From NCBI GenBank assembly GCA_013697635.1, contig JACCWM010000036.1:1-64000 (forward strand): a stretch of DNA of 64,000 nucleotides, written 5' to 3'. The notes beneath the pieces are model-generated. The model worked only from the letters and a program-made list of their open reading frames with translations. It did no database searches and was not told where the DNA came from. This document shows positions 35,725 through 50,711 of this stretch, piece after piece; position 1 is the stretch's first letter; each line of letters begins with the position of its first letter. Made by a program: the position numbers and the translations under genes. The stretch is from Lujinxingiaceae bacterium (GTDB lineage Bacteria > Myxococcota_A > Bradymonadia > Bradymonadales > Bradymonadaceae).

Positions 35725-36744
35725 ATGAATGATTCTGCCCAACAGCGCTCGCCACGCTTTCGCATCTGGTGCGAGCACCTGGCCTACGAGGACGCACGTA
35801 AGGCCGAGGTGCTCGACCTCTTGTGCACCGGCCCGATTCACCCGATCTTCGCCGTACTCCATGAGGCCGACCTCGACGAGCTGGCAGCTCTGCTGCGCGC
35901 CGTGCAAGCGCGCGGTCTGGGCGCGGGCATCTGGCCGCTCTTACCGGAAGCGCTCGGCTACTGGCCCTCGGAGCGAAACGCCGCGGCCTATTTTGAGCGC
36001 ATCCAGGAGCTCTTGAGCCAACTCGAGGCCAGAGAGTGTGCGCCCCAGTGGATCGCCGTCGACCTCGAGCCGCCGATCGATCAGGTCAGCTTGCTGCTGC
36101 GCTCGAGCTTTGGGCTGCCCGCAGCCGTCGTCCAACTCTTTTTGGCCAACATGGATCCGGCGCGCTTTGCCGACTCGAGCGCGATCTTTTGTCGCGAGAT
36201 CGGCGCGCTCAACGCGCGCGGCTTCGAGACGCTGGGCGTCACCTTGCCGCTCGCGGCCCACGACCTGCGCGACGGTGGCACGCTCTGGCAGGACCTGCTC
36301 GAGGCGCCCTGGGCCGCGGTGCCCTGGAATCATGCGGGGATCATGGCTTATGGATCGATGATCGCCGGCTACTCGCGCGGCATGCTCAGCGTCGAGGACG
36401 CGCGCGCCATTCACTTTCGCCTCTTTGAGCATCTCGTGGCCGCCTTCGGCGAGCGTGCCCACGCCTCGCTGGGCGTGACGGGCACGGGCAAGCTCGGAGA
36501 CGAGCCTGTCTACACCAGCGCCGAAGAGCTCGCCCAAGACGTCGCCGCGGCCCGCGCGGCGGGCATCAGCGACATCGCGATCTTTTGTTTGGAGGGATTG
36601 ATCGGCCGACCGGACGCCGGCCGCTGGATCGAGCTTGCCATGGGCGCCGAGCCCAAGGCTGCGCCTCAGACCCGACGCTACGGCGTCGTGCGCCAGGGCG
36701 GCTCGTTTCTGCGCCGGGCCCTGCTCGCGCTTGCCAAATCCTAA
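35725..36744 (+). CDS. Hypothetical protein, possible TIM-barrel fold
   Basis: ATG 35725 gives 339 residues, with no signal or membrane segment. The pattern of alternating strands and helices (FRIWCEHLAYED, IHPIFAVLHEADLDELAALLRAVQARGLGAGIWPLLP, PQWIAVDLEPPIDQ, GFETLGVTLPLAA, HAGIMAYGSMIAGYSRG, ASLGVTGTGKLGDEPVYTS, ISDIAIFCLEGLIG) suggests a TIM barrel of glycoside-hydrolase or sugar-phosphate type, with acidic residues at strand ends (DLEPP, CLEGL). I cannot name a family. It is convergent with the PAP2 gene, overlapping by 4 bases. Confidence 0.7.
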   Translation: MNDSAQQRSPRFRIWCEHLAYEDARKAEVLDLLCTGPIHPIFAVLHEADLDELAALLRAVQARGLGAGIWPLLPEALGYWPSERNAAAYFERIQELLSQLEARECAPQWIAVDLEPPIDQVSLLLRSSFGLPAAVVQLFLANMDPARFADSSAIFCREIGALNARGFETLGVTLPLAAHDLRDGGTLWQDLLEAPWAAVPWNHAGIMAYGSMIAGYSRGMLSVEDARAIHFRLFEHLVAAFGERAHASLGVTGTGKLGDEPVYTSAEELAQDVAAARAAGISDIAIFCLEGLIGRPDAGRWIELAMGAEPKAAPQTRRYGVVRQGGSFLRRALLALAKS

Positions 36745-37703
36745 AGCCCGCGCACCTGGGCCAGCACCGGATCGGCCTGCAGGAAACGATTGCGCAAGAG
36801 CTTTTGCACGGCGCAGGGGATGCGTCGAAGCGGCGTCGAGCGAAACAAAAAGTAGACGCTCACCGCAAGCGTCGTGCCGGCCATCACATCGAGCAAGTAG
36901 TGATGGTTCAGATACACGGCGAAAAAGCCCATCACACCGGCATAGAACCAGCCCGCCATGCGAAAGCCCGTGCCTCGCATGTGCAGGGCAAACCACACCG
37001 CGTAGGCCGTGTGACCCGAGGGCATTGCGCCGTAGACGTAGGCGCTCTTGCTGTAGACTGTGGCGAAGTACTCGATGCCCAAAAACTGATCCAGGCGCGC
37101 CAAAGCGGCCGGGTTGCCAATCACGTCGACGCTCGCTGGCATGTAGCCATATTCGGTGATGTACCAGGGCGGCGCGACGGGAAAGAGCAAGTTGATCGTG
37201 AACATGCCGATGTTCAGCACCAAAAAGCCCCACAAAAAGCGGTGCAGCATCACACCCGATGGCTCGTCTTCACTGCCTTTTCGCTGATGACGCCACCACA
37301 GATAGACGCCGAGCAAAATGATCACGCCCACGTGCGAGGCATACCAGAGCCCGCCGATCACATCGATCACCTGATGGTGCGCAGTCGCAAAGATCTCATT
37401 GAGCGTCAGGCGCGTGCCATCGTTGAAGGTCCAGCCAAACAACAGCAGCTCCAGCTGGTGAACACCGGCGACGGTGGCCTTGGCGGCCGCCGTGTCGGCG
37501 AAGATACGCAACAGATCGTACATCCAAACGAACAAACAGAAGGGCACGAACGAGAGCACGAAATGGCGCGTCATCCGCGACATGAACCAAAAACCCGTCG
37601 CAGCACCCAACATCGCCAGATGCTCGGTTCTCAGCGGATTGACCAGACTATACAGAACCAACGCGCCAATGAGCGCGGTCGGTGCAATCAGCCCTTTCCT
37701 CAT
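36741..37703 (-). CDS. PAP2/AUR1-like membrane phosphotransferase (inositol-lipid type), copy 1
   Basis: I start at ATG 37703, preceded by GAGG at 5 bases; 37733 would add 10 residues. The 320-residue protein has about six membrane segments and the PAP2_3/AUR1 active-site motifs YVYGAMPSGHTAYAVWFAL (about 205-225) and YLNHHYLLDVMAG (about 250). In fungi and protists this family moves phosphoinositol from phosphatidylinositol onto ceramide; other PAP2 members are lipid phosphatases. It is paralogous to the gene at 38363-39319, sharing NPLRxEHL, WMYDLLRIF and LFPVAPPWY. Its place beside PgpA, a CDP-alcohol transferase and inositol-phosphate synthase supports an inositol-lipid role, which is inference. 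Confidence 0.88.
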   Translation of the reverse strand: MRKGLIAPTALIGALVLYSLVNPLRTEHLAMLGAATGFWFMSRMTRHFVLSFVPFCLFVWMYDLLRIFADTAAAKATVAGVHQLELLLFGWTFNDGTRLTLNEIFATAHHQVIDVIGGLWYASHVGVIILLGVYLWWRHQRKGSEDEPSGVMLHRFLWGFLVLNIGMFTINLLFPVAPPWYITEYGYMPASVDVIGNPAALARLDQFLGIEYFATVYSKSAYVYGAMPSGHTAYAVWFALHMRGTGFRMAGWFYAGVMGFFAVYLNHHYLLDVMAGTTLAVSVYFLFRSTPLRRIPCAVQKLLRNRFLQADPVLAQVRGL

Positions 37704-37862
37704 ACCAACCTCAACTTCAACTATCTTCGCCATGCAGACTAAGCCCTTGAACTTAAAAGGCTTCCTGCTCTAGTTTTGCCGAGGATATAATAGGTTGGCA
37801 AGACGCAATTGTTCCAGCTAAACCGGAAAAATCCGTTAAAAGTGAACAACTTGCGCCGTAAA

Positions 37863-38366
37863 TCAGAGCAGGATCGCGACCAGCCAGACGAGCGGCAGCG
37901 CCCACAGGCCTGCGACGACATCGTCGAGCACGACGCCAAGGCCGCTTTGGACCTCGCGGTCGAACCAGTGCGCGGGGGGAGGTTTGAGCATATCGAGGAT
38001 GCGAAAGGCGACAAAGCCGGCGAGCAGCATCGGCCAGGTCAGCTCATCGAAGAACACCAGGGCGACCCAGACGCCGACGACCTCGTCGATCACGATCTGA
38101 GAGCTGTCGTGCTCGCCCAGCGCGCGCCCGGCCCGATCACTGCAGACGACCGAGAGCACCAGGGTGACGGCCAGCGCCAACAAGCGCATGCTCAGCGGCA
38201 GATCCTTCATCCACCAGATCGGCGCAAGCATCAGCGCCGCGGCGTAGGTGCCCGGGCCGCCGGGCAGATGCCCCACACCGCCGACGGTGGCAAACGCCAT
38301 CGAGACCGGCGCCTTGGACCAGGCGCTACGCCAATTGGCTGGTCGCCGGTGACCGCCAAGGCTCAT
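37863..38366 (-). CDS. pgpA: PgpA-family phosphatidylglycerophosphatase / lipid phosphatase
   Basis: The 167-residue membrane protein has the PgpA family motifs: GVGHLPGGPGTYAA (about 30-43), SSQIVIDEVVGVWVALVFF (about 88-106), FRILDMLKPPPAHWFD (about 120-135) and GLGVVLDDVVAGLWALP (about 141-157). PgpA removes the terminal phosphate from phosphatidylglycerophosphate; in inositol-lipid clusters a PgpA-like enzyme is a natural candidate for phosphatidylinositol phosphate. Its ATG overlaps the stop of the upstream PAP2 gene (ATGA), so it is translated with it. Given the neighbours, a phosphatidylinositol-phosphate phosphatase role is plausible but unproven. Confidence 0.92.
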   Translation of the reverse strand: MSLGGHRRPANWRSAWSKAPVSMAFATVGGVGHLPGGPGTYAAALMLAPIWWMKDLPLSMRLLALAVTLVLSVVCSDRAGRALGEHDSSQIVIDEVVGVWVALVFFDELTWPMLLAGFVAFRILDMLKPPPAHWFDREVQSGLGVVLDDVVAGLWALPLVWLVAILL

Positions 38367-39319
38367 GCGGCCACCTCGATCGCTTGCGCTGGCTGCTCGG
38401 ACTCGAGAAATTGCGCCCGAAGCATGCCATGGATCCGAACCGGAACCTGAGCCAGGGCCGTGCGGGTCAAGAGCACGTAGGCGCCCAGCGAAAACGCCGC
38501 GCCAGCCACAAGATCAAGCACATAGTGGTGGGTGAAATAGACGGCAAAAAACGCCATGCCCGAGGCGTAAAACCACGCCGCGGAGCGCCCGGCAAGACTT
38601 CGCGCGTTGAGCGCAATCCACACCGGATAGGCCACGTGCAAGGAGGGCATCGCGCCAAAAACGTAGGCGGCCTTGCCATAGATCCCGGCAAAGTAGCCAA
38701 ATCCGATCAACTGGTCGACGCGCGCCAGGCCGCCCGGATCGCCGAGCATTGCGCCCTCGGGCACAGCATAACCAAATTGTTCGACATACCAGGGCGGCGC
38801 CACCGGAAAGAACACCTGGACTAAAAAGCCAATCAGGTTGACGAACAAAAAGCCCCACATGAAGCGGTGCAGCCGCACCGAGTGCGCCACAACACCGGCG
38901 CGCCGCTGAGTCCACCACAAAAACAGCCCGAAGCCGATGATCGTGGCCATGTGCGAGGAGTACCAGGCCGCGCCGATCAGATCGAGCACGGGATGGTGAC
39001 GGTCGATGAAGAATTCTACCGGCCCGATGCGCGCGCCATCGGCGCTCCAACCGAAGATCGCCAGCTCAGCCTCGCGCACCTCCGAGAGCGAGACGGCCCG
39101 CTCGGCGCGCGCCGAGAAGATGCGCAACAGGTCGTAGATCCAGACAAAGGCGACGATCGGCGAAAAGACCAACACGAACTCGCGCGTCACGCGCGAGACA
39201 AACCACAGCGTGGCCAGCGCCGCGAGCATCAAGAGGTGCTCGAGGCGAAGCGGATTGAGCAGGCTGTAGGCGATCAACACCAGGGCCAGGCCCGCAGCTA
39301 TGATTTGATTACGCGTCAT
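38363..39319 (-). CDS. PAP2/AUR1-like membrane phosphotransferase (inositol-lipid type), copy 2
   Basis: The 318-residue protein has about six membrane segments and the motifs YVFGAMPSLHVAYPVWIAL (about 210-230) and YFTHHYVLDLVAG (about 257-270). The PSLHxAY form is closer to AUR1-type inositolphosphoceramide synthases than the PSGH of copy 1. Shared blocks with copy 1 (FPVAPPWY, WMYDLLRIF/WIYDLLRIF, LHRFMWGFL) show a duplication. It overlaps the MMPL gene upstream and pgpA downstream by ATGA on each side, so the three genes form a tightly coupled unit. The two copies may act on different acceptors. Confidence 0.88.
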   Translation of the reverse strand: MTRNQIIAAGLALVLIAYSLLNPLRLEHLLMLAALATLWFVSRVTREFVLVFSPIVAFVWIYDLLRIFSARAERAVSLSEVREAELAIFGWSADGARIGPVEFFIDRHHPVLDLIGAAWYSSHMATIIGFGLFLWWTQRRAGVVAHSVRLHRFMWGFLFVNLIGFLVQVFFPVAPPWYVEQFGYAVPEGAMLGDPGGLARVDQLIGFGYFAGIYGKAAYVFGAMPSLHVAYPVWIALNARSLAGRSAAWFYASGMAFFAVYFTHHYVLDLVAGAAFSLGAYVLLTRTALAQVPVRIHGMLRAQFLESEQPAQAIEVAA

Positions 39320-41805
39320 GGTTTCGAGGGTTGGGCCTGTTCGGCTTCGACTTCGGTCACATCGTCGAGCTGGCCGTGTCGCACCAGTTGAGCGCGCAAG
39401 ACCATGAGCATCTGAAGCAAGAGGTTGACAAGCAAGATAGTCCCCAGCCCGATCACTGCAATGCGCCCAAGCGAGAGCAGCCCTTCGTGGTGGGCCACGA
39501 GCAAGGAGCCAAAGCCAATCATGCTCGTCACAAAGGCCGCGGACACCGAGCCGCCCACGCTCAAATGAGGCTGCACGCGCTCGGGCTCATCGCGAAGGCG
39601 CAGGTACATATGAAACGAGGCGTCGACGGTCAGGCCAAGCCACACCGGCAAGATGATCAGGTTGAGAAAATTGAAGTCGACGCCAAAGACCCCGGCAAAG
39701 CCCGCCGCACAAAACAAGGAGAGCGCCAGCGAGCCGAGCAGCCACCAGAACTGGCGGCTGAAGCCAAAGGCCAAGAGCGCCACCAGAAACACTCCGAAGG
39801 CGGTGGTCAGCACGATCCACAGCGTATCTTGAGTCACGAAGTGCAAGATGTCGGCCAGAAGCAGCGCGTCGCTGACCCCGTCGATCGCCGCCGGCGCGCC
39901 CTCGGCGCCCGGGAGGTTGCGCATCACGCTGGCAAAATCCTCGATCACGCGCGCCTGTTCCATGGGAAGCGAGGCAAAGACGAGCACCACCGAGGCCTGG
40001 GGATCGTCGAGGCGCGAGAAGGGAATGCGCACCGCTTCGGGCAGCATCGCCTCGCCAACCGGCGCGGCGGCGAGCACGCGATCGATCTCGTCGAGAAACG
40101 CCTCGAGCTGCTCGGAGCGCTGGCCCTGGGGCAGCGCGGCCAGCTCCTCGCCCAGCTCTTCGAGCAGCGCGAGCTTCTCAGCCTGGCGCTGGGGCAAGAG
40201 GTCATCGGGGGCGAGCACCTGTTCGATCGTATAGCCACCCGGCGCGCTCTGCTGGCGCCGGCGCAGCTCCTCGGCCACCCGGCGCGCGTGCTCGCGCGAC
40301 TCCACGAGCACCACGGCCGGCGTCTGCGACTGATTCAAGATATCATTGACCATCTCATCGAGGCGCCAGGTGGGCGTGTCGGTCATCTGCACGGCGCGAA
40401 AGTCGCGCTCGAGCTCGACGTGGGCCACTCCGGCGCCGGCCAAGACGACCACTGCCGCCAGGACGCTGGCGAGCAGCGTAAATCCGCCGCGCATGCGCCG
40501 CACCTGCGCCGGCGTCGGCGTGCGCCCCAGGGAAAACAGGGGCGTAAGCCTTTGCGCGAACAACACCGACAAGGGCACACGCTGGCTGCTCGGGCCGCGG
40601 CTCGAGCCGGCCAGACTGGCCTGGGCGATGATCAGCGCCGGAAACACCGTCGCGTAGGCCAGCAGAATCAAGGCCAGCCCGCCGAGCGCGATGATCCCAA
40701 ACTCGAAGAAGGCCCGAAAGCTCGACAGCGACAGACTTCCCAGGGCCACCATCGTCGTCAGCCCGGCAAAGACGCTGGCCCGCCCCGCCGTGGCCAGCGT
40801 GATCGTCAAAGCCTCGCCGACCGTGCCCTCCTCGGCGCGCACCTCGTAGAAGCGCGAGACCAGATGGATGCCATAGTCGACACCCAGACCGAGCAAAATC
40901 GCGCCTAAAAAGGCCGTCAACACGTTGAGCGAGCCAAAGATCAGCGCCGCCCAGGCAAAGGCCCAGATCGTGCCCACGATCAACGGCACGAGCACCATCA
41001 AGGTGGCGTGCAGGCTGCGCAAATACAAAACGAGAAAGACCAGCAGGCCGAGCAGCGCCACCAGCGTCGCGCTCTGAAGATCGCTGGTGAGGATGTGCTG
41101 CTGCTCGACGCGCTTCATGTAGCGCCCGGTAAAGGCCATCGTCACGCCGGGAAACTCCTGGCTCAGGCGCGCCGCGGCGATCTGGGCCACCTGCTCGACC
41201 AGCGCGCTCGAGCGGGCCAGATCGGCGGCGGAGAAGCTCGGATGGATGAAGAACACCAGCGTGTGGCCGTCCTCGCTCTCAAAAAACTCGCCCTCGCCGA
41301 TGGCCTCGTAGCGCTGCTCGATGTCGCTCAGATCGAGCTCGGGCGGGCGCGCCGGCCCCAGGTCAGCAAACAACGGGTTGGCCCGTGCGCGCTCCCAGCG
41401 GATGCGCCGGCGGATACGCTCGTCGGCCTCGACCAGGTCCTCGTAGTCGACATAGATCAGGCGAAAATCGGTGAAAAAATCGGTCGGACGCCTCAGCTCG
41501 ATGCGCTCGACGCTCGCCAGAGGCTCAAGCTCCTGGCTGATGCGCTCGGCCGCGGCGCGGTTGGTGGCGTGATCGGGGCCTTGCAAGACCACCGTCAGCC
41601 GACCGACGTTGTCGCCATAGGCGCGCTCGAGCTCTGCCAGACCGATCACGCTCGACGCGGTCTCGGGGAGCAGCTGTGAGAGGTCGGCATCGAGGCTGAG
41701 CGTGCGCGCCAAGAACACGGCTCCGACCGTCACGGCGACCAGCACCAACAAGACGAGCACATAGCCTCGTTGGTACAACCCCACGACGGAAGTGAACAGT
41801 TTCAT
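39316..41805 (-). CDS. MMPL/RND-superfamily lipid exporter (HpnN-like)
   Basis: The 829-residue protein has the two-fold RND/MMPL layout: one membrane helix (about 15-35), a large periplasmic loop (about 40-240), five helices (about 245-400), a helix near 450, a second periplasmic loop (about 470-670) and five final helices. Motifs include GLGVDYGIHLVSRFYE in the first half and LTVDASFHMYLRLRDE in the second, each with the family's charged residues inside the membrane. HpnN-type members move hopanoids, and MMPL proteins move complex lipids. Coupled to the PAP2 and pgpA genes, so export of the lipid made by this cluster is the likely job. Confidence 0.9.
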   Translation of the reverse strand: MKLFTSVVGLYQRGYVLVLLVLVAVTVGAVFLARTLSLDADLSQLLPETASSVIGLAELERAYGDNVGRLTVVLQGPDHATNRAAAERISQELEPLASVERIELRRPTDFFTDFRLIYVDYEDLVEADERIRRRIRWERARANPLFADLGPARPPELDLSDIEQRYEAIGEGEFFESEDGHTLVFFIHPSFSAADLARSSALVEQVAQIAAARLSQEFPGVTMAFTGRYMKRVEQQHILTSDLQSATLVALLGLLVFLVLYLRSLHATLMVLVPLIVGTIWAFAWAALIFGSLNVLTAFLGAILLGLGVDYGIHLVSRFYEVRAEEGTVGEALTITLATAGRASVFAGLTTMVALGSLSLSSFRAFFEFGIIALGGLALILLAYATVFPALIIAQASLAGSSRGPSSQRVPLSVLFAQRLTPLFSLGRTPTPAQVRRMRGGFTLLASVLAAVVVLAGAGVAHVELERDFRAVQMTDTPTWRLDEMVNDILNQSQTPAVVLVESREHARRVAEELRRRQQSAPGGYTIEQVLAPDDLLPQRQAEKLALLEELGEELAALPQGQRSEQLEAFLDEIDRVLAAAPVGEAMLPEAVRIPFSRLDDPQASVVLVFASLPMEQARVIEDFASVMRNLPGAEGAPAAIDGVSDALLLADILHFVTQDTLWIVLTTAFGVFLVALLAFGFSRQFWWLLGSLALSLFCAAGFAGVFGVDFNFLNLIILPVWLGLTVDASFHMYLRLRDEPERVQPHLSVGGSVSAAFVTSMIGFGSLLVAHHEGLLSLGRIAVIGLGTILLVNLLLQMLMVLRAQLVRHGQLDDVTEVEAEQAQPSKP

Positions 41806-41870
41806 GGAGCTCTCAGGGACTCAGTCAGATGCACGCTGATGACCAGCCTGGCTCGCGTTGCCCGCTACCC

Positions 41871-41952
41871 CTCCCCATGTGTGGGGAGGGCGCTAGGGCG
41901 CCCTCCCCACACATGGGGAGGGCGTCGCTACACCTCCCCACGTGTGGGGAGG
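41871..41952. repeat. Cluster of palindromic CTCCCC...GGGGAG repeats
   Basis: Two 23-base arms (41871-41893 and 41898-41920) form a perfect inverted repeat around a 4-base loop TAGG. Each arm itself is a near-palindrome, CTCCCCATGTGTGGGGAG. A third near-palindrome, CCTCCCCACGTGTGGGGAGG, lies at 41933-41952. They lie in the 232-base gap between gtrA and the MMPL gene. There is no T-run on either side, so they are not simple terminators; they look like REP-type intergenic repeats. Confidence 0.9.
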
Positions 41953-42037
41953 ATCAAGGAGGGGGCCCTTCACGCCGTTGCATGCCTCGTGCTGTGATAA
42001 ACGTCTCCGCCAAAACGTGGTCTCGCCATCGCCCGGG

Positions 42038-42460
42038 TCAATTCATTTCTTCGCCCAACGGCCCAAAGACCACAAAACGGCTGACCGGATAGGTCCAGAT
42101 CACGAAGATCGCCACCTTGGAGAACAGCCACGCCGCCGATACCCCGGCGTACAGGGCCATGGCATGGGTGGTGAGACCGTGGGCGAGCGCGGCCCCACCG
42201 CTCATCAGCCCGTAGGCCGCCAGCGCGCTCATCAACGGCTTGTCATAGCGCTGAAAAACCCAGAAGCGACAGAGCAGGAAGTGGGTCAGTCCACCGACCA
42301 TCGCCGCGAGTGCGGCCACCGCGCCGACATGATAGACGCCCCAGGGCGGCGTCCAGCTCAGCAGATGCGCAAAGAGGATACCATCGACCGCTGTTGCCAA
42401 AAAACTCGCAACAGCCGTGGTCGACAAGTCGAGAAGATGGCGCTTGGGCTTGAACATCAT
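42038..42460 (-). CDS. GtrA-family membrane protein
   Basis: I start at ATG 42460, giving a usual GtrA length of 140 residues; a TTG at 42532 overlapping the previous stop would add 24 residues. The protein has four membrane segments: LSTTAVASFLATAVDGILFAHLL, VGAVAALAAMVGGLTHFLLCRFWVF, ALAAYGLMSGGAALAHGLTTHAM and AWLFSKVAIFVIWTYPVSRFVVF. The RFWVF and RFVVF ends are typical of GtrA, which helps move polyprenyl-linked sugars or lipids across the membrane. Its place inside a lipid cluster suggests flipping of a lipid-linked intermediate. Confidence 0.85.
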   Translation of the reverse strand: MMFKPKRHLLDLSTTAVASFLATAVDGILFAHLLSWTPPWGVYHVGAVAALAAMVGGLTHFLLCRFWVFQRYDKPLMSALAAYGLMSGGAALAHGLTTHAMALYAGVSAAWLFSKVAIFVIWTYPVSRFVVFGPLGEEMN

Positions 42461-42528
42461 GCAGAAGCCATCCAAGGGTTGGGCAAGTTTGATAGAGTCG
42501 GCCAATGAGGCCGCAGCTCGCACAATCT

Positions 42529-43368
42529 TCAAACTCGTCCGGATTCAAAATGCGTTGAGAGGGGTTGATCACCGACCTCGATCTCCGCCGGCATTGACGC
42601 CTCGCTCTCGCGCAGCGCGTTGAAGATCCAACGTGCCCGTGAGACGGCAGTAAACAACGCGGCAGCGGCGATAAATCCCGTACCGACGATTGCCAGATGG
42701 TAGGTGGGTATCCCCCGCCCCGGCTCTAAATATAGGGCCAGATAAGGAGATCCCAAGGTCGTCACAAAGAGCACGACCATGCGCTCGGGCCGCTGCATCA
42801 GGCCACCCTTGCACTCCACGCCCAGCGCTTCGCCGCGCGCACGCGCATAGCTGACCGCATAGGAGGCGATGATCGCGGCGACCGCCGTCCAGGTCAGCCA
42901 GCCACCCTGGCCATAGTAGGCAAGCCCCAAATAGACGCCGCCCTCGCCAAGCCGGTCGATAAACGAGTCAAAGAAGGCGCCCGAGCGCGAGGCCTGTGCG
43001 GTGAGCCGCGCGAGCAGGCCGTCGAGCCCGTCACAGGCCGCGGCCAGCGCGAAGATCCAGGCGCCCCAGATGAACTGGCCGACGCCAAAGCTTATCGCCG
43101 CCACAGTGGCCAATACCAGCGAGAAAGCGGTGATATGGTTGGGCGTCACACCCCGGCGCGCCAGAGCGTGAACCAGCGGGCCGAGCGCCCAGTAGAAGAA
43201 GCCAACGAGCATCGGCGGCACCAGCGCCGAGCCGGCGTAGCGGCGAAACGCCTGGCGGTCGCGGCGAGGGTGCACGGCCAGGCCGTAGTAGCCAAGGGCC
43301 AACAGTCCCCCGATCAAGATAGCCAGACCTGGCAAGGCTCCGGTCACAAGCGACGACATGCGCATCAT
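42529..43368 (-). CDS. CDP-alcohol phosphatidyltransferase (candidate phosphatidylinositol-phosphate synthase)
   Basis: I start at ATG 43368, with GAGG about 8 bases upstream, giving 279 residues; earlier starts lack one. The family motif D-x2-D-G-x2-A-R-x8-G-x3-D-x3-D is complete in CDGLDGLLARLTAQASRSG followed by AFFDSFIDR (about residues 110-135), with all four metal/catalytic Asp present. About six membrane segments are visible. The enzyme joins a CDP-linked alcohol to a second alcohol; beside inositol-1-phosphate synthase the likely acceptor is inositol phosphate and the donor CDP-diacylglycerol, or a CDP-cyclitol donor given the cytidylyltransferase-like domain at 45224. Both are inferences. 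Confidence 0.9.
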   Translation of the reverse strand: MMRMSSLVTGALPGLAILIGGLLALGYYGLAVHPRRDRQAFRRYAGSALVPPMLVGFFYWALGPLVHALARRGVTPNHITAFSLVLATVAAISFGVGQFIWGAWIFALAAACDGLDGLLARLTAQASRSGAFFDSFIDRLGEGGVYLGLAYYGQGGWLTWTAVAAIIASYAVSYARARGEALGVECKGGLMQRPERMVVLFVTTLGSPYLALYLEPGRGIPTYHLAIVGTGFIAAAALFTAVSRARWIFNALRESEASMPAEIEVGDQPLSTHFESGRV

Positions 43369-43435
43369 AAAGGTTCCCTCGATGCTGCGACGGCGGGGCT
43401 GAGAGGAGATGGAGAGTTGGGCGACTTTTGACGGT

Positions 43436-43481
43436 CCCAAAGGGGGCTGGCTGCACGCGGCCGTGGCCGGCTCCCTTTGGG
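43436..43481 (-). terminator. Hairpin between ino1 and the CDP-alcohol transferase gene
   Basis: Arms CCCAAAGGGGGCTGGC (43436-43451) and GCCGGCTCCCTTTGGG (43466-43481) pair with two mismatches. No T-run follows on the minus strand, so it is more likely a partial terminator or RNA-stability element inside the operon. Confidence 0.4.
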
Positions 43482-43495
43482 GTGGGGGGCTTTAG

Positions 43496-44824
43496 CTAGG
43501 CGTTGAGGCTTCGCACGTGGGCCAGCGGGCGAGCCACTGACATGCCGGCGATCTCGCGCAGCGTCTGCTCGAGCATGCGCTGCTGGATGAAGAGGTTGTG
43601 CTCGATCGACTCGGCCCCGTTTTGCTGGGGGCTCTTGAAATAGAACGACAGCCAGTCCTGCACCCCACAACGTCCGCTGCGCTGGGCCAGGTCCATGAAC
43701 AGGGCCAGATCGAGCACCAGCGGCGCGGCCAGAATCGAGTCGCGGCACAAGAAGTTGATCTTGATCTGCATCGGATAGCCCATCCAGCCGAAGATATCGA
43801 TGTTGTCCCAGCCCTCCTTGTTGTCGCCACGCGGCGGATAATAATCGATGCGCACCTTGTGCGTCATCGAGGCGTAGAGCTCGGGGTTTTTGGTCTTGTC
43901 CAAGATCGAGTCGAGCACGGAGAGCTTGCTCTCCTCTTTGGTGCGAAACGAGCCCGGGTCGTCGAGCACGGCCCCGTCGCGATTGCCCAAGATGTTGGTC
44001 GAGTACCAGCCGTGCACGCCCAAAAGCCGGGCGGCAAAGCCCGGCGCCAGGATCGTCTTCATCAGCGTCTGGCCGGTCTTGAAGTCCTTGCCCGCGATCG
44101 CCACACCCTCACGCTCGGCGAGCGCGACGATCGCCGGACAGTCCACCGAGCGGTTCGGTGCGCCGTTGGCAAAGGGCACGCCCGAGCGCAACAGGGCGTA
44201 GGCGTAGATCATGCTCGGGCTGATCTTCGGGTGGCTCGTGCGCAGGCCCTTCTCAAAGGATTCGATGCTCTGATGAACCGCCTCGAGCTCGACAAAGCTC
44301 TCGGTCGAGCCGCACCAAATAGCCACCGCTCGGCTGCAGCCGTTGTCGGCCATAAAGTTTGCGACATCGGCCATCAGCGCCTCGGCCAAATCCATCTTCG
44401 TCTCGCCGCGCTTGACGTTGCTGCCGCTCAGGTTGCGCACATAGTTTTGATCGAAGACGGCGGCCATCGGCTTGATCGCCGCCAGGCAGTCGCGCGCCGC
44501 CTCGAGGTGCTCGCGGCTCAAGACATCGGCCTGACAGGCCGCCTCAAAGCAGTTCTCCTCGTAGATGTCCCAGCCACCAAAGACAAGATCGTCGAGGCTC
44601 GCCAAGGATACGGCCTCGCCTATCGCCACGGGCTCTTGCGATGTGCCCTCCTCGCCTGGCAGCATGCCCAACTGCGTTAAGCTGCCCACCGGCACCGAGG
44701 CGCCCCTTCGCACCGCCTCGACCCCGGCGATAAACGTCGTCGCGACTGCTCCCATACCGGGCAACAACACCGCGAGTTTGCCTTGTGCGGGGTCAAGATG
44801 GTTTCCACCTGGCGTTCGATACAT
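43496..44824 (-). CDS. ino1: myo-inositol-1-phosphate synthase
   Basis: The 442-residue protein converts glucose-6-phosphate to inositol-1-phosphate using NAD as an internal cofactor. Visible family features are the N-terminal Rossmann stretch AVLLPGMGAVATTFIAGVEAVRRG, the DLVFGGWDIYEEN region, GVPFANGAPNRSVDCPAI, the catalytic Lys region AGKDFKTGQTLMKTILAPGFAARLLGV, and YSTNILGNRDGAVLDDPGSFRTKEESKLS. ATG 44824 has GGAG at about 9 bases. It is the first gene of the leftward lipid arm and diverges from the cytidylyltransferase-DHQS gene. It supplies inositol phosphate for the cluster, which is the key link to inositol lipids. Confidence 0.96.
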   Translation of the reverse strand: MYRTPGGNHLDPAQGKLAVLLPGMGAVATTFIAGVEAVRRGASVPVGSLTQLGMLPGEEGTSQEPVAIGEAVSLASLDDLVFGGWDIYEENCFEAACQADVLSREHLEAARDCLAAIKPMAAVFDQNYVRNLSGSNVKRGETKMDLAEALMADVANFMADNGCSRAVAIWCGSTESFVELEAVHQSIESFEKGLRTSHPKISPSMIYAYALLRSGVPFANGAPNRSVDCPAIVALAEREGVAIAGKDFKTGQTLMKTILAPGFAARLLGVHGWYSTNILGNRDGAVLDDPGSFRTKEESKLSVLDSILDKTKNPELYASMTHKVRIDYYPPRGDNKEGWDNIDIFGWMGYPMQIKINFLCRDSILAAPLVLDLALFMDLAQRSGRCGVQDWLSFYFKSPQQNGAESIEHNLFIQQRMLEQTLREIAGMSVARPLAHVRSLNA

Positions 44825-45223: not shown

Positions 45224-47101
45224 ATGCCCTCCAAGTCGTCCTCGCTCTCGCTCGCCCTTATTCCCGCCGCTGGCCGCGGAGCGCGCCTCGATCGCCCGGC
45301 CACGCCCAAGCCCCTGGTCGACGTCGGCGGTCGCCCGATCATCGTCGACGTGCTCCTGCGCTTGCAAGAGGCCGGCATCGAGCGCGCCGTGGTCGTGGTC
45401 GGCTACGCCGGCGCCGAGATCGTGCGCGCGCTCACCAACCACCCCCTACTCAAAGTCGAGCTGACCTTTGTCGAGCATACCGGCTGGCAACAGGGCCTGG
45501 CCTCGAGCCTGCTCGCTGCGCGCGAGCACATCGATGAGCCCTTCGTGCTCGCCATGGCCGATCATCTCTTCGGCCCCGATCTGGTCGAGCGCATCGCGCA
45601 CGCAGAGCTTGGCGACGACGACGCCGTCATGCTCGTCGATCAAAACCTGGCCGGCATCTACGACCTCAAAGACGCGGTCAAGGTCGGCCTCGACGGCCTG
45701 CGCGTGCTCGATCTGGGCCGCAGCCTCGACCAAGTCGACGGCGTCGACGCCGGCCTCTTCGCGCTTCGAGCGAGCATCTTCGAGGTGCTCGAGCAGACCC
45801 TCTGCGAGATCGAGCCGGCCGACCTGACCGACGCGGTTCGCGCCCTGGCCAAGGCCGGCAAACTGCGCGCCGTCTTCACCGACGGCGCGCCCTGGCACGA
45901 CATCGACACCCCATCGGCGCTGATCCATGCCGAGATGCAACACCGCGCAACGCTTCGAAAGACCAAGGTCAGCCGCCCGATCTTCGACGGGGCGACCGAG
46001 CCCAAGAGCTACCGGTTCACCACCGGAAAGGCCGCCGAAACCCAGGTCGTCATTCAGCGAGGCTTCGTCAAAAACCCTGAGCGCCTCCAGCTCGTGCCCG
46101 ACCAGAGCGCCTCCTCACCGGTTTACGTCTTCACCGACACACGCGTCGACGCGCTCTACGGCGACGCCTTTGTCGGCGGCCTCGACCGCATGGGCTATGA
46201 CGTTCGACGCATCGTCATGGCCGAGGGCGAGGAGTCCAAGACGCTGGCCAACTACGCGAGCCTCGTCGAGCGCGTCCTGGCCGGCGGCATCGACGAGCGC
46301 TCGGTGCTCATCTCGCTTGGCGGCGGCGCCGTATGCAACGTGTGCGGCTTTATCGCCTCGACGCTCTATCGCGGCATCGGTCTGGTTCATGTGCCCACCA
46401 CCTTGATGGCCCAGTGCGACGCCGCGATCAGCCATAAACAGGGCGTCAACGGCGATCGCGGCAAGAACCTCGTCGGCTCTTACTATGCGCCCATCGCCAT
46501 CGCCGTCGACGTCGAGGTGCTCTCCACGCTCGAAGACTGGCTGATCCCCGACGGCTTGAGCGAGGTGATCAAGCACGCCCTGGGCCAGGACCCGGCCTAC
46601 CTGAAGTTTTTGCTCGACTACGACGGCTCGATGTTCGATCGCGACTTTCTCGAGCACGTCGTGCAAAAAAACATCGAGCTCAAGTGTGCGCTGATGGCGA
46701 TCGATGCCAAGGAACACCGCGAGGGCATGGTGCTTCAATACGGCCACTCGGTGGGCCACCCGGTCGAATACCTCTCCGGCTACGATCTCAACCACGGCCA
46801 GTCGGTGGCGATCGGCATGATGGTCGCCGCGCGAGTCGCGCGCCAACTCGGCGCCTGTGGCGACGACATGATCGAGCTTCACCGCCGTGTGATCGAAAAA
46901 TTCGAGCTGCCAACGCGCATTCCCAAGAACATCGAGGTGGCCGACATCCTGGCCACGATGCGCTACAACAAGCGCTACCTTACCGAGGGCACGCGCATGG
47001 CGCTGATCGATGCCCCCGGCCACCTCTGGTCGGTCGACGACGACTACGCCATCCCCGTCTCCGATGGCGTACTCATCGAAGCAATCCTCGCCAGCTATTG
47101 A
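45224..47101 (+). CDS. Fusion of inositol-phosphate cytidylyltransferase-like and DHQ-synthase-like cyclase domains
   Basis: ATG 45224 has AGGAA about 6 bases upstream, giving 625 residues. The N-terminal half (about 1-245) is a nucleotidyltransferase: LIPAAGRGARLDRPATPKPLVDV, LAMADHLFGPDLVERI, DAVKVGLDGLRVLDLGRSL, DAGLFALRASIFEVLE and PWHDIDTPSAL closely follow the CTP:inositol-1-phosphate cytidylyltransferase pattern. The C-terminal half (about 260-625) is a 3-dehydroquinate-synthase-fold cyclase: LISLGGGAVCNVCGFIASTLYRG, HVPTTLMAQCDAA, LSEVIKHALGQD and the metal region YGHSVGHPVEYL plus HGQSVAIGMM. Such cyclases also make valiolones and deoxy-inososes. HGQ replaces the common HGE. It heads a three-gene operon with an SDR and a PfkB kinase. 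Confidence 0.88.
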   Translation: MPSKSSSLSLALIPAAGRGARLDRPATPKPLVDVGGRPIIVDVLLRLQEAGIERAVVVVGYAGAEIVRALTNHPLLKVELTFVEHTGWQQGLASSLLAAREHIDEPFVLAMADHLFGPDLVERIAHAELGDDDAVMLVDQNLAGIYDLKDAVKVGLDGLRVLDLGRSLDQVDGVDAGLFALRASIFEVLEQTLCEIEPADLTDAVRALAKAGKLRAVFTDGAPWHDIDTPSALIHAEMQHRATLRKTKVSRPIFDGATEPKSYRFTTGKAAETQVVIQRGFVKNPERLQLVPDQSASSPVYVFTDTRVDALYGDAFVGGLDRMGYDVRRIVMAEGEESKTLANYASLVERVLAGGIDERSVLISLGGGAVCNVCGFIASTLYRGIGLVHVPTTLMAQCDAAISHKQGVNGDRGKNLVGSYYAPIAIAVDVEVLSTLEDWLIPDGLSEVIKHALGQDPAYLKFLLDYDGSMFDRDFLEHVVQKNIELKCALMAIDAKEHREGMVLQYGHSVGHPVEYLSGYDLNHGQSVAIGMMVAARVARQLGACGDDMIELHRRVIEKFELPTRIPKNIEVADILATMRYNKRYLTEGTRMALIDAPGHLWSVDDDYAIPVSDGVLIEAILASY

Positions 47102-47117: not shown

Positions 47118-47855
47118 ATGAGACGCACCGTCCTTGTCACCGGCGGCTCGAGCGGCATTGGCCTCGAGACGGCGCGCGCCTTTGTCGCCTGCGGCGAGCG
47201 CGTGATCATCTGCAGCCGCGACAACGAAAAGCTCGCCCGCGCAGCCCTCGAGCTAGGCGTCGAGTCCCACGTGCTCGACGTCACGGATCAAAAGGCCGTC
47301 GAGGATCTCTTCGAAGCCATCGGCCCGCTCGATGCGCTCGTCGCCAACGCCGGCATCTGCCAGCAGGCGCGCCTCGACGACACCCAGAGCGACGACGTCT
47401 GGCGGCGCACCCTCGACATCAACCTCAACGGCGTCTACCACTGCCTCAAGGCCGCCCAGCGCACGATGCCCGAGGGATCAGCGATCGTGACCGTCTCCTC
47501 GGGGCTTGGAAAAAACGCCCGCGCCGGCTACGAGGCCTACACCGCCAGCAAACACGCCGTTCTCGGGCTGACCAAGTGCGTTGCCCTCGAGCTTGCACCG
47601 CGCAACATCCGCGTCAACGCCGTCTGCCCGGGCTGGGTCGACACGCCGATGTCCCAGGCCGACGCCGCCGAAGGCGCGCGCCGCGCCGGCCTGGCAGAAG
47701 ACGACTTTCGCCGCCAGGCGGTCGAGGCCATCCCGCTTGGCCGCATGGTTGACCCGGCCGAGGTCGCCTCCCTGATCTTTTTCCTCTGCTCGAGCGCTGC
47801 CCGCGCGATCACCGGCCAGAGCTACAACGTTTCCTGCGGCGAGTTCACCAACTAA
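47118..47855 (+). CDS. Classical short-chain dehydrogenase/reductase
   Basis: ATG 47118 has AAGGAG 8 bases upstream and lies 16 bases after the fusion gene. The 245-residue protein has all classical SDR motifs: TGGSSGIG cofactor loop (about 8-15), the adenine-pocket Asp (VLDVTD), NAGI, catalytic Ser in VSSGLG (about 125), YTASK (about 140-144) and PGWVDTPM. It should oxidise or reduce an alcohol with NAD(P). Given its neighbours, a cyclitol ketone from the DHQ-synthase-like domain is the likely substrate, which is inference. Confidence 0.93.
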   Translation: MRRTVLVTGGSSGIGLETARAFVACGERVIICSRDNEKLARAALELGVESHVLDVTDQKAVEDLFEAIGPLDALVANAGICQQARLDDTQSDDVWRRTLDINLNGVYHCLKAAQRTMPEGSAIVTVSSGLGKNARAGYEAYTASKHAVLGLTKCVALELAPRNIRVNAVCPGWVDTPMSQADAAEGARRAGLAEDDFRRQAVEAIPLGRMVDPAEVASLIFFLCSSAARAITGQSYNVSCGEFTN

Positions 47856-47858
47856 GCC

Positions 47859-48749
47859 ATGAAAACCCTCGTCGTTGGCCACGTTACCCACGATCACTAC
47901 GAAGAAGGCTTCGTCGCCGGCGGCAGCGCCTTCTACGGCGCCCAGGTCCACGCCCGCCAGCCCGGCCTCAGCCACCTGCTCACCGTGGTCGGCGACGACT
48001 TCGTCTGCAACGACGCCATCGCCCAGCTCGACGCCACCGTTTGCCGCCAGGGCAAGACCACCGTCTTCGCCAACTACTACCCGCCCGGCCAGCCGCGCAT
48101 CCAACTGCTCGAGGCCAGCGCACCGATGGTGGATCCAAGCCTTACTCCGGCGGCCTGGGCCGATGCCGATCTGATACATTTGGCACCGGTCATCGGCGAG
48201 CTCGACCTCGCGGCCTGGAAGGGCGTCAAGCGCCGTGGCCTGCTCGCGATCAACGTTCAGGGCTGGATCAAGGCTGCCGGTCCCGAGATCGACCCCAGCG
48301 CCCTCGAGCAGGCCCAGCGACGCGGCGTCGGCGCAACCGCGCACCGCGTCGTCCAAAAGCCCTGGAACGTCACCACAGACGAGCTCACCGGCATCGACAT
48401 CGCTTGTCTGAGCGAAGAAGACATCATCGGCCAGGGCGACCTGCTTGATCGGCTCGTTTTGGCCGTGCCCATCGTCGCCCTGACCCTGAGCGCGCGCGGC
48501 AGCCGCATCTTCGTCGCCGGCAAGGCCATCGAGATCGGCATTTATCCCACCAACGTCGTCGACCCAACCGGCGCCGGCGACGTCTTCGCCGCAACCTTTG
48601 TCCACCACATCATGGCCGGCCTTGCCCCGGCCGACGCCGCACGCTTTGCGGCGGCCGCGGCATCGATCGTCATCGAAGACGTCGGCGCCCGCGCGCTCGA
48701 GCGCCTGGGCGAGTGCGAAGCGCGCGCCGCCCGGGTGCCCGTGGGCTAA
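47859..48749 (+). CDS. PfkB-family sugar/cyclitol kinase
   Basis: The 296-residue protein begins 3 bases after the SDR stop, so the genes are coupled. It has the PfkB anion hole and catalytic base in NVVDPTGAGDVFAATFVHHIMAG (about 230-252), a Gly-rich N-terminal substrate region (FVAGGSAFYGAQVHARQ) and the LTLSARGSRIFVAGK region typical of the ribokinase fold. The N-terminus is short compared with ribokinases. In cyclitol pathways such kinases phosphorylate valiolone- or inositol-like compounds, so it probably prepares a phosphate for the cytidylyltransferase-like domain of the same operon. Confidence 0.9.
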   Translation: MKTLVVGHVTHDHYEEGFVAGGSAFYGAQVHARQPGLSHLLTVVGDDFVCNDAIAQLDATVCRQGKTTVFANYYPPGQPRIQLLEASAPMVDPSLTPAAWADADLIHLAPVIGELDLAAWKGVKRRGLLAINVQGWIKAAGPEIDPSALEQAQRRGVGATAHRVVQKPWNVTTDELTGIDIACLSEEDIIGQGDLLDRLVLAVPIVALTLSARGSRIFVAGKAIEIGIYPTNVVDPTGAGDVFAATFVHHIMAGLAPADAARFAAAAASIVIEDVGARALERLGECEARAARVPVG

Positions 48750-48872
48750 AAACCAACTGCGCCAGACTCCCTTCGACTGGACGTTGACCCCCTCGTGCGG
48801 GTAAGAACGAGTCTGTCGCAGACTTTCGTAAGTTTTCAATCAGCCATGCGCCAAGCGTTCAAGGATCTACTC

Positions 48873-50711
48873 ATGCATATTCTGGTCATCAACTGTGGAA
48901 GCTCGAGCATCAAGGCCGACGTTCGCGATCACCTGGGGCAAAGCTATCCCAGCCGCATGGTCGTCGAGCGCGTCGGCAGCGCCGAGGCCTTCGTCAAGCT
49001 CAACGGCCAGGAGAGCATCGCCTGCCCGAACATGGATCACCAACAAGCCCTCGAATTTGCCCTGCCCCTGCTGCTCGCTAGCCTCGCGGCGGACACCACG
49101 ATTCGCGGCGTCGGCCACCGCGTCGTGCACGGCGGCGACGTGTTCGATCAGCCCGTGCGCATCGACCAGAGCGTCGAGGACACCATCGCCGAGCTCGCAA
49201 GCCTTGCGCCGCTGCACAATCCGGTCAACCTGGCCGGAATCCGCGCCGCGCGCACCGTCTTGCCCGACGTTCCCCACGTGGCCGTCTTCGATACCGGCTT
49301 TCACGCCACCTTGCCCAAGCGCGCGCGCACCTACGCGCTGCCCTTTGAGATCGCCGAAGATCCGCGCATCCGCCGCTTTGGCTTTCACGGCATCAGCCAC
49401 GGCTTTGTCGCCAGCCGCGCCGCTGATTTCATGGAGACCGACGTGCGCGATCTGCGCCTGATCACCTGCCACCTGGGCAACGGCGCCAGCATCGCCGCCG
49501 TCGAGTATGGCCGCTCGATCGAGACCAGCATGGGCATGACCCCGCTCGAGGGTTTGGTCATGGGTACGCGCAGCGGCGATGTCGATCCCGGCATCATCAT
49601 TCATTTGATGCGCAGCAAGAATCTCAACGTCGACCAGATCGACGATCTGCTCAACCGCCACTCCGGCCTGGCCGGCCTCTCCGGCGTGGGCAACGACATG
49701 CGCGACATCGAGCGACGCGCCTCCGACGGCGACGATCACTGTCGCCTGGCCATCCAGGTCTTCACCCACCGCCTGCGCAAGTACATCGGCGCCTATGCCG
49801 CCGTCATGGGCGGCGTCGACGCGATCGTCTTCACCGCCGGCATCGGTGAGAACAGCGTCATGGTGCGCCACCGCATCGCCCAGAGGCTGGACTTTCTGGG
49901 CGCGCGCATCGACGAAGACCGCAACCGCGAGGTGCGCCTGAGCGACGAAGCACCGGTCGCCGACATCTCCAAGCGCCACAGCCGCGTTCGCCTACTGGTC
50001 GTGGCCACCGACGAGAGCCAGGCGATCGCCGAGGAGACCGTTCAGCTCGTGCTCGAGCACGACCTCACCCAGGGCCAGCGCACAATCCCGGTGGCGATCT
50101 CCGCTCGCCACGTGCACCTGACCCAGGAGACGATCGAGAAACTCTTTGGCCCGGGCCACCAGCTCACCATTCGAAACGAGCTCTCCCAGCCCGGCCAGTA
50201 CGCCGCCGAGGAGACGGTCAACGTGATCGGCCCGCGCAACACTCTGCAAAACGTGCGCATCCTGGGGCCACCGCGAAACCTCGACCAGGTCGAAGTCTCG
50301 CGCACCGACGAGTTCTTTTTGGGAATCGATGCTCCGGTGCGCGCCTCGGGCGACATCGAAGCCAGCCCCGGCATCATCTTGGAAGGTCCGGACGGCCAGA
50401 TCGAGCTCGCCAAGGGCGTCATCTGCGCCTGGCGCCACATCCACATGACCCCGGACGACGCCATGCACTTTGGCGTGCGCGACCGCGACGTCGTCGAGGT
50501 CGCCCTGGGCGGCGGGGATCGCGATCTCGTCTTTGGCGACGTCCTCGTGCGTGTCTCGCCGAGCTTTCGCCTGGAAATGCACATCGATACCGACGAAGGC
50601 AATGCAGCAAACCTCGGCCGCGATGCCACCGGCATGCTGATCAGCACCACGGCCCTGGCAAGCCTGACGCGCCGCCAAACGCGCTACGACCGCCTCGAAG
50701 CCGCCGAGTGA
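48873..50711 (+). CDS. Fused acetate kinase-PduL phosphotransacylase
   Basis: ATG 48873 begins exactly at the AckA N-terminus, giving 612 residues. Residues about 1-395 are acetate kinase: VINCGSSSIKADV, VGHRVVHGGDVF, RRFGFHGISHGFV, ITCHLGNGASIAAVE, GLVMGTRSGDVDPGI and FTAGIGENS, with the catalytic Arg, His and Asp kept. Residues about 402-612 are a PduL-type phosphate acyltransferase: IPVAISARHVHLT (zinc His pair), PGQYAAEETV, GIDAPVRASGDIE, CAWRHIHMTPDDAM and VRVSPSFRLEMHIDTDEGNAA. Together they turn acetyl-CoA plus phosphate into acetyl-phosphate and then acetate plus ATP. No microcompartment targeting peptide is seen at the PduL part. It follows the kinase gene by 123 bases. Confidence 0.95.
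   Translation: MHILVINCGSSSIKADVRDHLGQSYPSRMVVERVGSAEAFVKLNGQESIACPNMDHQQALEFALPLLLASLAADTTIRGVGHRVVHGGDVFDQPVRIDQSVEDTIAELASLAPLHNPVNLAGIRAARTVLPDVPHVAVFDTGFHATLPKRARTYALPFEIAEDPRIRRFGFHGISHGFVASRAADFMETDVRDLRLITCHLGNGASIAAVEYGRSIETSMGMTPLEGLVMGTRSGDVDPGIIIHLMRSKNLNVDQIDDLLNRHSGLAGLSGVGNDMRDIERRASDGDDHCRLAIQVFTHRLRKYIGAYAAVMGGVDAIVFTAGIGENSVMVRHRIAQRLDFLGARIDEDRNREVRLSDEAPVADISKRHSRVRLLVVATDESQAIAEETVQLVLEHDLTQGQRTIPVAISARHVHLTQETIEKLFGPGHQLTIRNELSQPGQYAAEETVNVIGPRNTLQNVRILGPPRNLDQVEVSRTDEFFLGIDAPVRASGDIEASPGIILEGPDGQIELAKGVICAWRHIHMTPDDAMHFGVRDRDVVEVALGGGDRDLVFGDVLVRVSPSFRLEMHIDTDEGNAANLGRDATGMLISTTALASLTRRQTRYDRLEAAE

Follow-up and report, generated by a model that had tools for sequence, protein, structure and literature searches.

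Why would a bacterium place in one polypeptide a domain that turns a sugar phosphate into a carbocycle and a domain that activates a cyclitol phosphate with a nucleotide? The question is raised by a 64,000-nt stretch of DNA (hereafter, the window) from Lujinxingiaceae bacterium, of the phylum Myxococcota_A and the class Bradymonadia (contig JACCWM010000036.1 of assembly GCA_013697635.1). At positions 45224-47101 of the forward strand, a single open reading frame (ORF) of 625 aa encodes a fused cyclitol cyclase and cytidylyltransferase, and the next two genes on the same strand encode an SDR-family reductase (47118-47855) and a PfkB-family kinase (47859-48749). The answer that we favour, with a probability of about 65%, is that this three-gene operon would convert a hexose phosphate, through a deoxy-inosose, a deoxyinositol and a deoxyinositol phosphate, into a CDP-activated cyclitol, CDP-deoxyinositol. 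In the best reading, the first and the last catalysts of one short pathway sit in one chain.

The fusion itself is real. The ORF opens with an in-frame ATG at 45224, its stop codon ends at 47101 and it has no internal stops; because the same two-domain frame recurs open in many other genomes at 48-75% identity, single-contig ones included, an assembly or frame artefact is excluded. Pfam located NTP_transf_3 at residues 11-218 (4.7e-17) and DHQ_synthase (1.2e-32) plus DHQS_C (5.4e-29) at residues 330-584, confirming an earlier sequence-only reading of this DNA that had described a cytidylyltransferase-like and a DHQ-synthase-like half in one chain. An AlphaFold model of the protein, built with 21 relatives, reached a mean pLDDT of 86.7 and a pTM of 0.72, and structural alignment paired each domain with its own PDB family. 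The N-terminal domain (residues 1-250; 45224-45973) aligned over residues 8-250 with solved inositol-1-phosphate cytidylyltransferases (IPCTs; 4mnd, Z 28.9, and 2xme, Z 27.0, at 29-32% identity) and nearly as well with sugar nucleotidyltransferases (Z 26-28). The C-terminal domain (residues 259-625; 45998-47101) matched 3-dehydroquinate synthase (DHQS), 2-deoxy-scyllo-inosose (DOI) synthase and EEVS at Z 34-44. The fold by itself cannot separate either set of families; sequence and trees can.

For the cyclase we built two maximum-likelihood trees, both without EboD rows; members of TIGR04425 were added to the second. In both trees the family was the sister clade of the DOI synthases (support 100/99), outside the clade that the DOI synthase rows form themselves (100/99). 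Its score against TIGR04425 was 189, far under the model's own cut-off of 400. At positions 372, 406 and 501, the family shares Asn, Gln and Gly/Ala with the DOI synthases, while DHQS has Asp, Thr/Val and Arg (Asn372, at 46337-46339, is also Asp in EEVS). Position 505, which closes the Gly501 to Gln505 segment at 46724-46738, is an invariant Gln in 21 of 21 family alignment rows; it is Glu in DOI synthases, Asn in DHQS and Asp in EEVS, and the column is that of Glu243, an active-site residue of the DOI synthase BtrC. An Arg/Asn pair, four residues apart and preceding the GH motif, is present in every row counted as true DHQS (presumably R264/N268 in A. nidulans numbering) and missing from all family rows. 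The metal and catalytic residues as known for DHQS, here E447, H508, H524, K405, K450, K487 and H512, are all retained. Because these residues are kept and the DHQS-type ones are changed, we expect the cyclase to be catalytically active, do not expect it to bind a carboxylate substrate in the DHQS manner, and consider that it probably uses a hexose phosphate or a close analogue.

For the N-terminal half, the sequence-only reading had proposed the IPCT pattern, to be tested against a grouping with unrelated sugar nucleotidyltransferases. The motifs on which it relied are present (MADH at residues 111-114, DAVKV at 150-154, DAGLFALRASIFEV, and DIDTP at 226-230). With the domain alone, the top solved match was the CTP:inositol-1-phosphate cytidylyltransferase 2xme (1.6e-21; next non-IPCT, 1.7e-6), and a family profile raised it to 6.6e-36, at 127 bits versus 68 bits for the best non-IPCT. 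The motifs MxDH, (A/E)A(V/T)K and D(I/V)DT are common to the family and the IPCTs, and sugar nucleotidyltransferases do not have them. In the tree, the family, the IPCTs and phosphocholine-like cytidylyltransferases stood apart from the sugar nucleotidyltransferases, with moderate support (86/93) and many long branches. By sequence, the domain is thus closest to the inositol-1-phosphate type and not to sugar nucleotidyltransferases. The per-domain phylogeny that the sequence-only reading had called for places the cyclase beside the DOI synthases and, with that moderate support, the cytidylyltransferase in a group with the IPCTs. The same genome has a stand-alone IPCT-like cytidylyltransferase, 31% identical to the fused domain, on a contig without a CDP-alcohol transferase match (L004, G000:C207, 1531-2283, reverse strand).

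The two fused activities cannot be consecutive steps: cyclases of the sugar phosphate cyclase superfamily release phosphate (PMC5133447), and their ring product must therefore be re-phosphorylated by a kinase before a cytidylyltransferase can act. The reductase and the kinase missing between them are the next two genes, of which the earlier reading made no use. Its core idea, that activation and cyclisation in one protein point to a second, nucleotide-activated cyclitol, passed the grouping tests, with substrate and product still predicted ones. The SDR gene (adh_short_C2, 2.6e-59) begins 16 bp after the fusion gene and the PfkB gene (PfkB, 9.5e-16) 3 bp after that; the genes are presumably co-transcribed. 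Most solved matches of the kinase span its nucleotide half only. Its full-span solved relatives include the Thermococcus kodakarensis inositol kinase MI3K (3w4s/4xf6/4xf7; 3.2e-13 for 3w4s in a profile search) and TM0415, and the substrate half alone matched only MI3K (1.7e-4). The inositol contacts of MI3K are D12, G26, Q136, R140 and D219 (PMC5931981); alignments gave D12, G22, Q134, K138 (Arg in MI3K) and, via the common GAGD motif, D241 as their counterparts, all of which except K138 are invariant in 11 relatives. These retained contacts are the best clue to a putative cyclitol intermediate, and the nearest relatives of all components with traceable specificity are cyclitol enzymes.

Gene order was followed in carriers, the genomes in which the whole fusion protein as query had a match at E<=1e-60. 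A sample of 377 genomes from the phylum contained 25 of them, and the class contributed 17 among its 57 genomes. The protein is fused in 23 carriers, with matches that cross the domain junction, and two (G053, G207) have the cyclase alone. Because the fused cyclases are a single clade (97/85) with both unfused ones outside it, the tree is consistent with one fusion event. No fused copy was found in the plasmid or phage records searched, and the only locus that a scan of genome contigs returned came from a genome that the set of relatives already included. In every carrier for which downstream sequence was available (22 of 22) the SDR gene came next, and in 18 of 21 a PfkB gene followed; the cyclase-SDR-PfkB trio is retained where the cytidylyltransferase is unfused. 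Clustering of all called neighbours of the carriers gave no recurrent fourth gene.

In the proposed pathway, the C-terminal cyclase, with NAD+ and a metal, would convert a hexose 6-phosphate, most likely glucose 6-phosphate, into a deoxy-inosose and expel phosphate as DOI synthase does. The SDR would reduce the ketone of the ring and so give a deoxyinositol, a cyclitol of the quercitol type, the PfkB kinase would phosphorylate one hydroxyl, and the N-terminal domain would combine the cyclitol phosphate with CTP to give a CDP-cyclitol. From glucose 6-phosphate this would run from 2-deoxy-scyllo-inosose through quercitol to CDP-quercitol. We infer the exact sugar phosphate, the stereochemistry, the use of CTP over other NTPs and the step order; reduction, phosphorylation and CMP transfer were placed in this sequence because it is the simplest order that employs all four activities. 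Use of the product as a phospholipid or sphingolipid head group is plausible. A more tentative proposal, which we hold well below even odds, is that a new cyclase specificity feeds CDP-deoxyinositol or another CDP-cyclitol into membrane lipids or surface polymers with a non-myo-inositol carbocycle as head group, which would take over part of the role of inositol in carriers without myo-inositol-phosphate synthase (MIPS).

Several observations weigh against this pathway. Gln505 replaces the active-site Glu of DOI synthase, so that a substrate other than glucose 6-phosphate is possible. The SDR belongs to too general a family for its substrate to be read from it, three carriers (G005, G029, G051) have no adjacent PfkB gene, and no cytidylyltransferase was seen near the trio of G207. 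A final transferase was also sought, and none specific to the carriers emerged: the CDP-alcohol transferase family repertoire of carriers was identical in the one non-carrier compared (G011), and nearly all carriers have no TagF-type or LicD-type transferases.

The alternative that survives best, unlikely as we judge it, keeps the same route and starts it from a heptose phosphate, such as sedoheptulose 7-phosphate, to end in a CDP-C7-cyclitol analogous to GDP-valienol. Known nucleotide-activated cyclitols do arise via sedoheptulose 7-phosphate cyclases (PMC9200736), and the difference at Gln505 from the DOI synthase residue fits such a change of substrate; however, a joint clade with EEVS/DDGS was rejected (approximately unbiased (AU) test, p=0.004), and the Pro at 512 and Met at 487 that mark those enzymes are missing from the family.

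Slightly less likely is that the two domains have unrelated activities, the cytidylyltransferase making CDP-inositol from MIPS-derived inositol-1-phosphate and the cyclase serving another pathway. The best solved relatives of the cytidylyltransferase do use inositol-1-phosphate, and in the window a divergent MIPS gene lies 400 bp from the operon. Yet MIPS was not found in six carriers, G002 (93% complete) and G013, G016, G018, G125 and G154 (96-99%), while it was found in 9 of 9 searched non-carriers of the same family; because these near-complete carriers do without it, the fusion operon is independent of MIPS-made inositol phosphate. Moreover, among the other fetched neighbourhoods only that of G010 has MIPS next to the operon, and this reading leaves no function for the SDR and the inositol-kinase-like gene.

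Less probable again is a true DOI synthase with an aminocyclitol (2-deoxystreptamine-like) product. DOI synthases are the nearest known cyclases and the DOI-type N372, Q406 and G501 are in place, but the family is sister to their clade instead of within it, the change of Glu243 to Gln is uniform across the family, and no aminotransferase recurs beside the operon. A DOI-synthase homologue clustered with aminotransferase, PIG-L deacetylase, radical SAM and glycosyltransferase genes was seen on a Sodalis praecaptivus plasmid (L061, 7794-9023).

A shikimate-pathway DHQS can be dismissed: the overall fold and the highest raw score, from the aroB equivalog TIGR01357, speak for it, but that score (261.4 bits) misses the NCBIfam cut-off of 305, the DHQS-type Arg and Asn are lost, a joint clade was rejected (AU test, p=0.002) and the source genome already has a DHQS-EPSPS fusion with intact residues (L002, G000:C54). 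By these signatures the cyclase is no 3-dehydroquinate synthase, in keeping with the earlier expectation that it would group apart from them. A second DHQS-EPSPS (AroB-AroA) paralogue of this genome (L003, G000:C193) has K405 changed to Q, N415 to D and N505 to E in the numbering of the fusion, which suggests a non-shikimate role or decay.

Divergent from the operon, on the reverse strand at 36741-44824, lies an inositol-lipid gene set: two PAP2_3 genes, PgpA, MMPL, GtrA, a CDP-alcohol transferase of the phosphatidylinositol-phosphate-synthase (PIPS) type at 42529-43440, and MIPS. The same families occur in the Bacteroides inositol-lipid cluster BT_1522-1526 (PMC9246714). The sequence-only reading had singled out the transferase as a separate gene, which it is, but it belongs to this cluster; we rejected it as the operon's own, the two being adjacent in only one other fetched neighbourhood. 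That genome, G010, has most of the inositol-lipid block beside the operon, the only such case among the fetched neighbourhoods, and because the relation recurs there only, a joint role of operon and lipid genes in lipid head groups is a lead. We also rejected a pair formed by a CDP-alcohol transferase and a cytidylyltransferase, which lies on the same contig at a distance of 27 kb (L106, 9852-11353): its transferase is not specific, occurring in 36 of the 40 genomes of the set whether or not they have the operon. A homologue of the pair adjoins the unfused trio in G053, and the pair possibly serves a Kennedy-type phospholipid route. Downstream of the operon, at 48867-50711 on the forward strand, acetate kinase and a PduL-type phosphotransacylase (PTAC) form one chain, with a 71% identical copy in G002 (L044).

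The known nucleotide-activated cyclitols include those of the C7 (valienol) pathways and CDP-inositol; from a conserved operon with a DOI-synthase-sister cyclase fused to an IPCT-type domain, one would predict that many bacteria of the phylum make another activated carbocycle. Antibiotic-type genes do not recur beside it. The four steps are assigned to predicted soluble enzymes. The genes are liable to be annotated as 3-dehydroquinate synthases, and are not shikimate enzymes. A candidate for another activated-cyclitol pathway is a Streptomyces plasmid cluster of NDP-sugar synthase, TPP enzyme, sugar phosphate cyclase, BadF-type kinase and inositol monophosphatase genes (L062, 1343-8818).

Compared with known systems, the cyclase resembles BtrC (2d2x/2gru) in its sister position and in Asn372, Gln406, Gly501 and the metal and lysine residues, but forms a separate clade, has Gln505 for Glu243, is fused to a cytidylyltransferase and lies in an operon without an aminotransferase. 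The N-terminal domain shares subfamily and motifs with the IPCT/DIPP synthases of A. fulgidus (2xme, 4mnd) and T. maritima (4jd0), its nearest solved relatives; in the archaeal fusion the second domain is a CDP-alcohol phosphotransferase, whereas here it is a sugar phosphate cyclase. MI3K (4xf7) and TM0415 (PMC5931981) are full-span relatives of the kinase with contacts kept except for one Arg to Lys change, but the relation is distant overall (a profile match) and MIPS-made inositol cannot be the natural substrate in several genomes here. EboD (PMC5133447) likewise represents a clade of uncharacterised cyclases whose bacterial operon is conserved, but with other partners, and its authors place it near sedoheptulose 7-phosphate enzymes; our trees contain no row for it. 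PntC-AEPT (6pd1/6pd2), of a phosphonate pathway, is an earlier case in which a cytidylyltransferase is joined to the enzyme of an upstream biosynthetic step, there a transaminase. In a literature search of partial coverage, we found no report of a cyclase-cytidylyltransferase fusion or of CDP-quercitol. The GDP-valienol route of acarbose and validamycin (AcbC to AcbR, VldB; PMC9200736) also runs from a sugar phosphate cyclase through one or more kinases to a nucleotidyltransferase; here the cyclase is of the DOI-synthase-like clade, the nucleotidyltransferase of the IPCT-like family, and both share one chain. The operon is thus a variant of the known cyclase-kinase-nucleotidyltransferase cyclitol routes that differs in cyclase clade, nucleotidyltransferase family and fusion, and its three genes can be read as a complete bacterial pathway, not described before, to an activated building block that resembles inositol.
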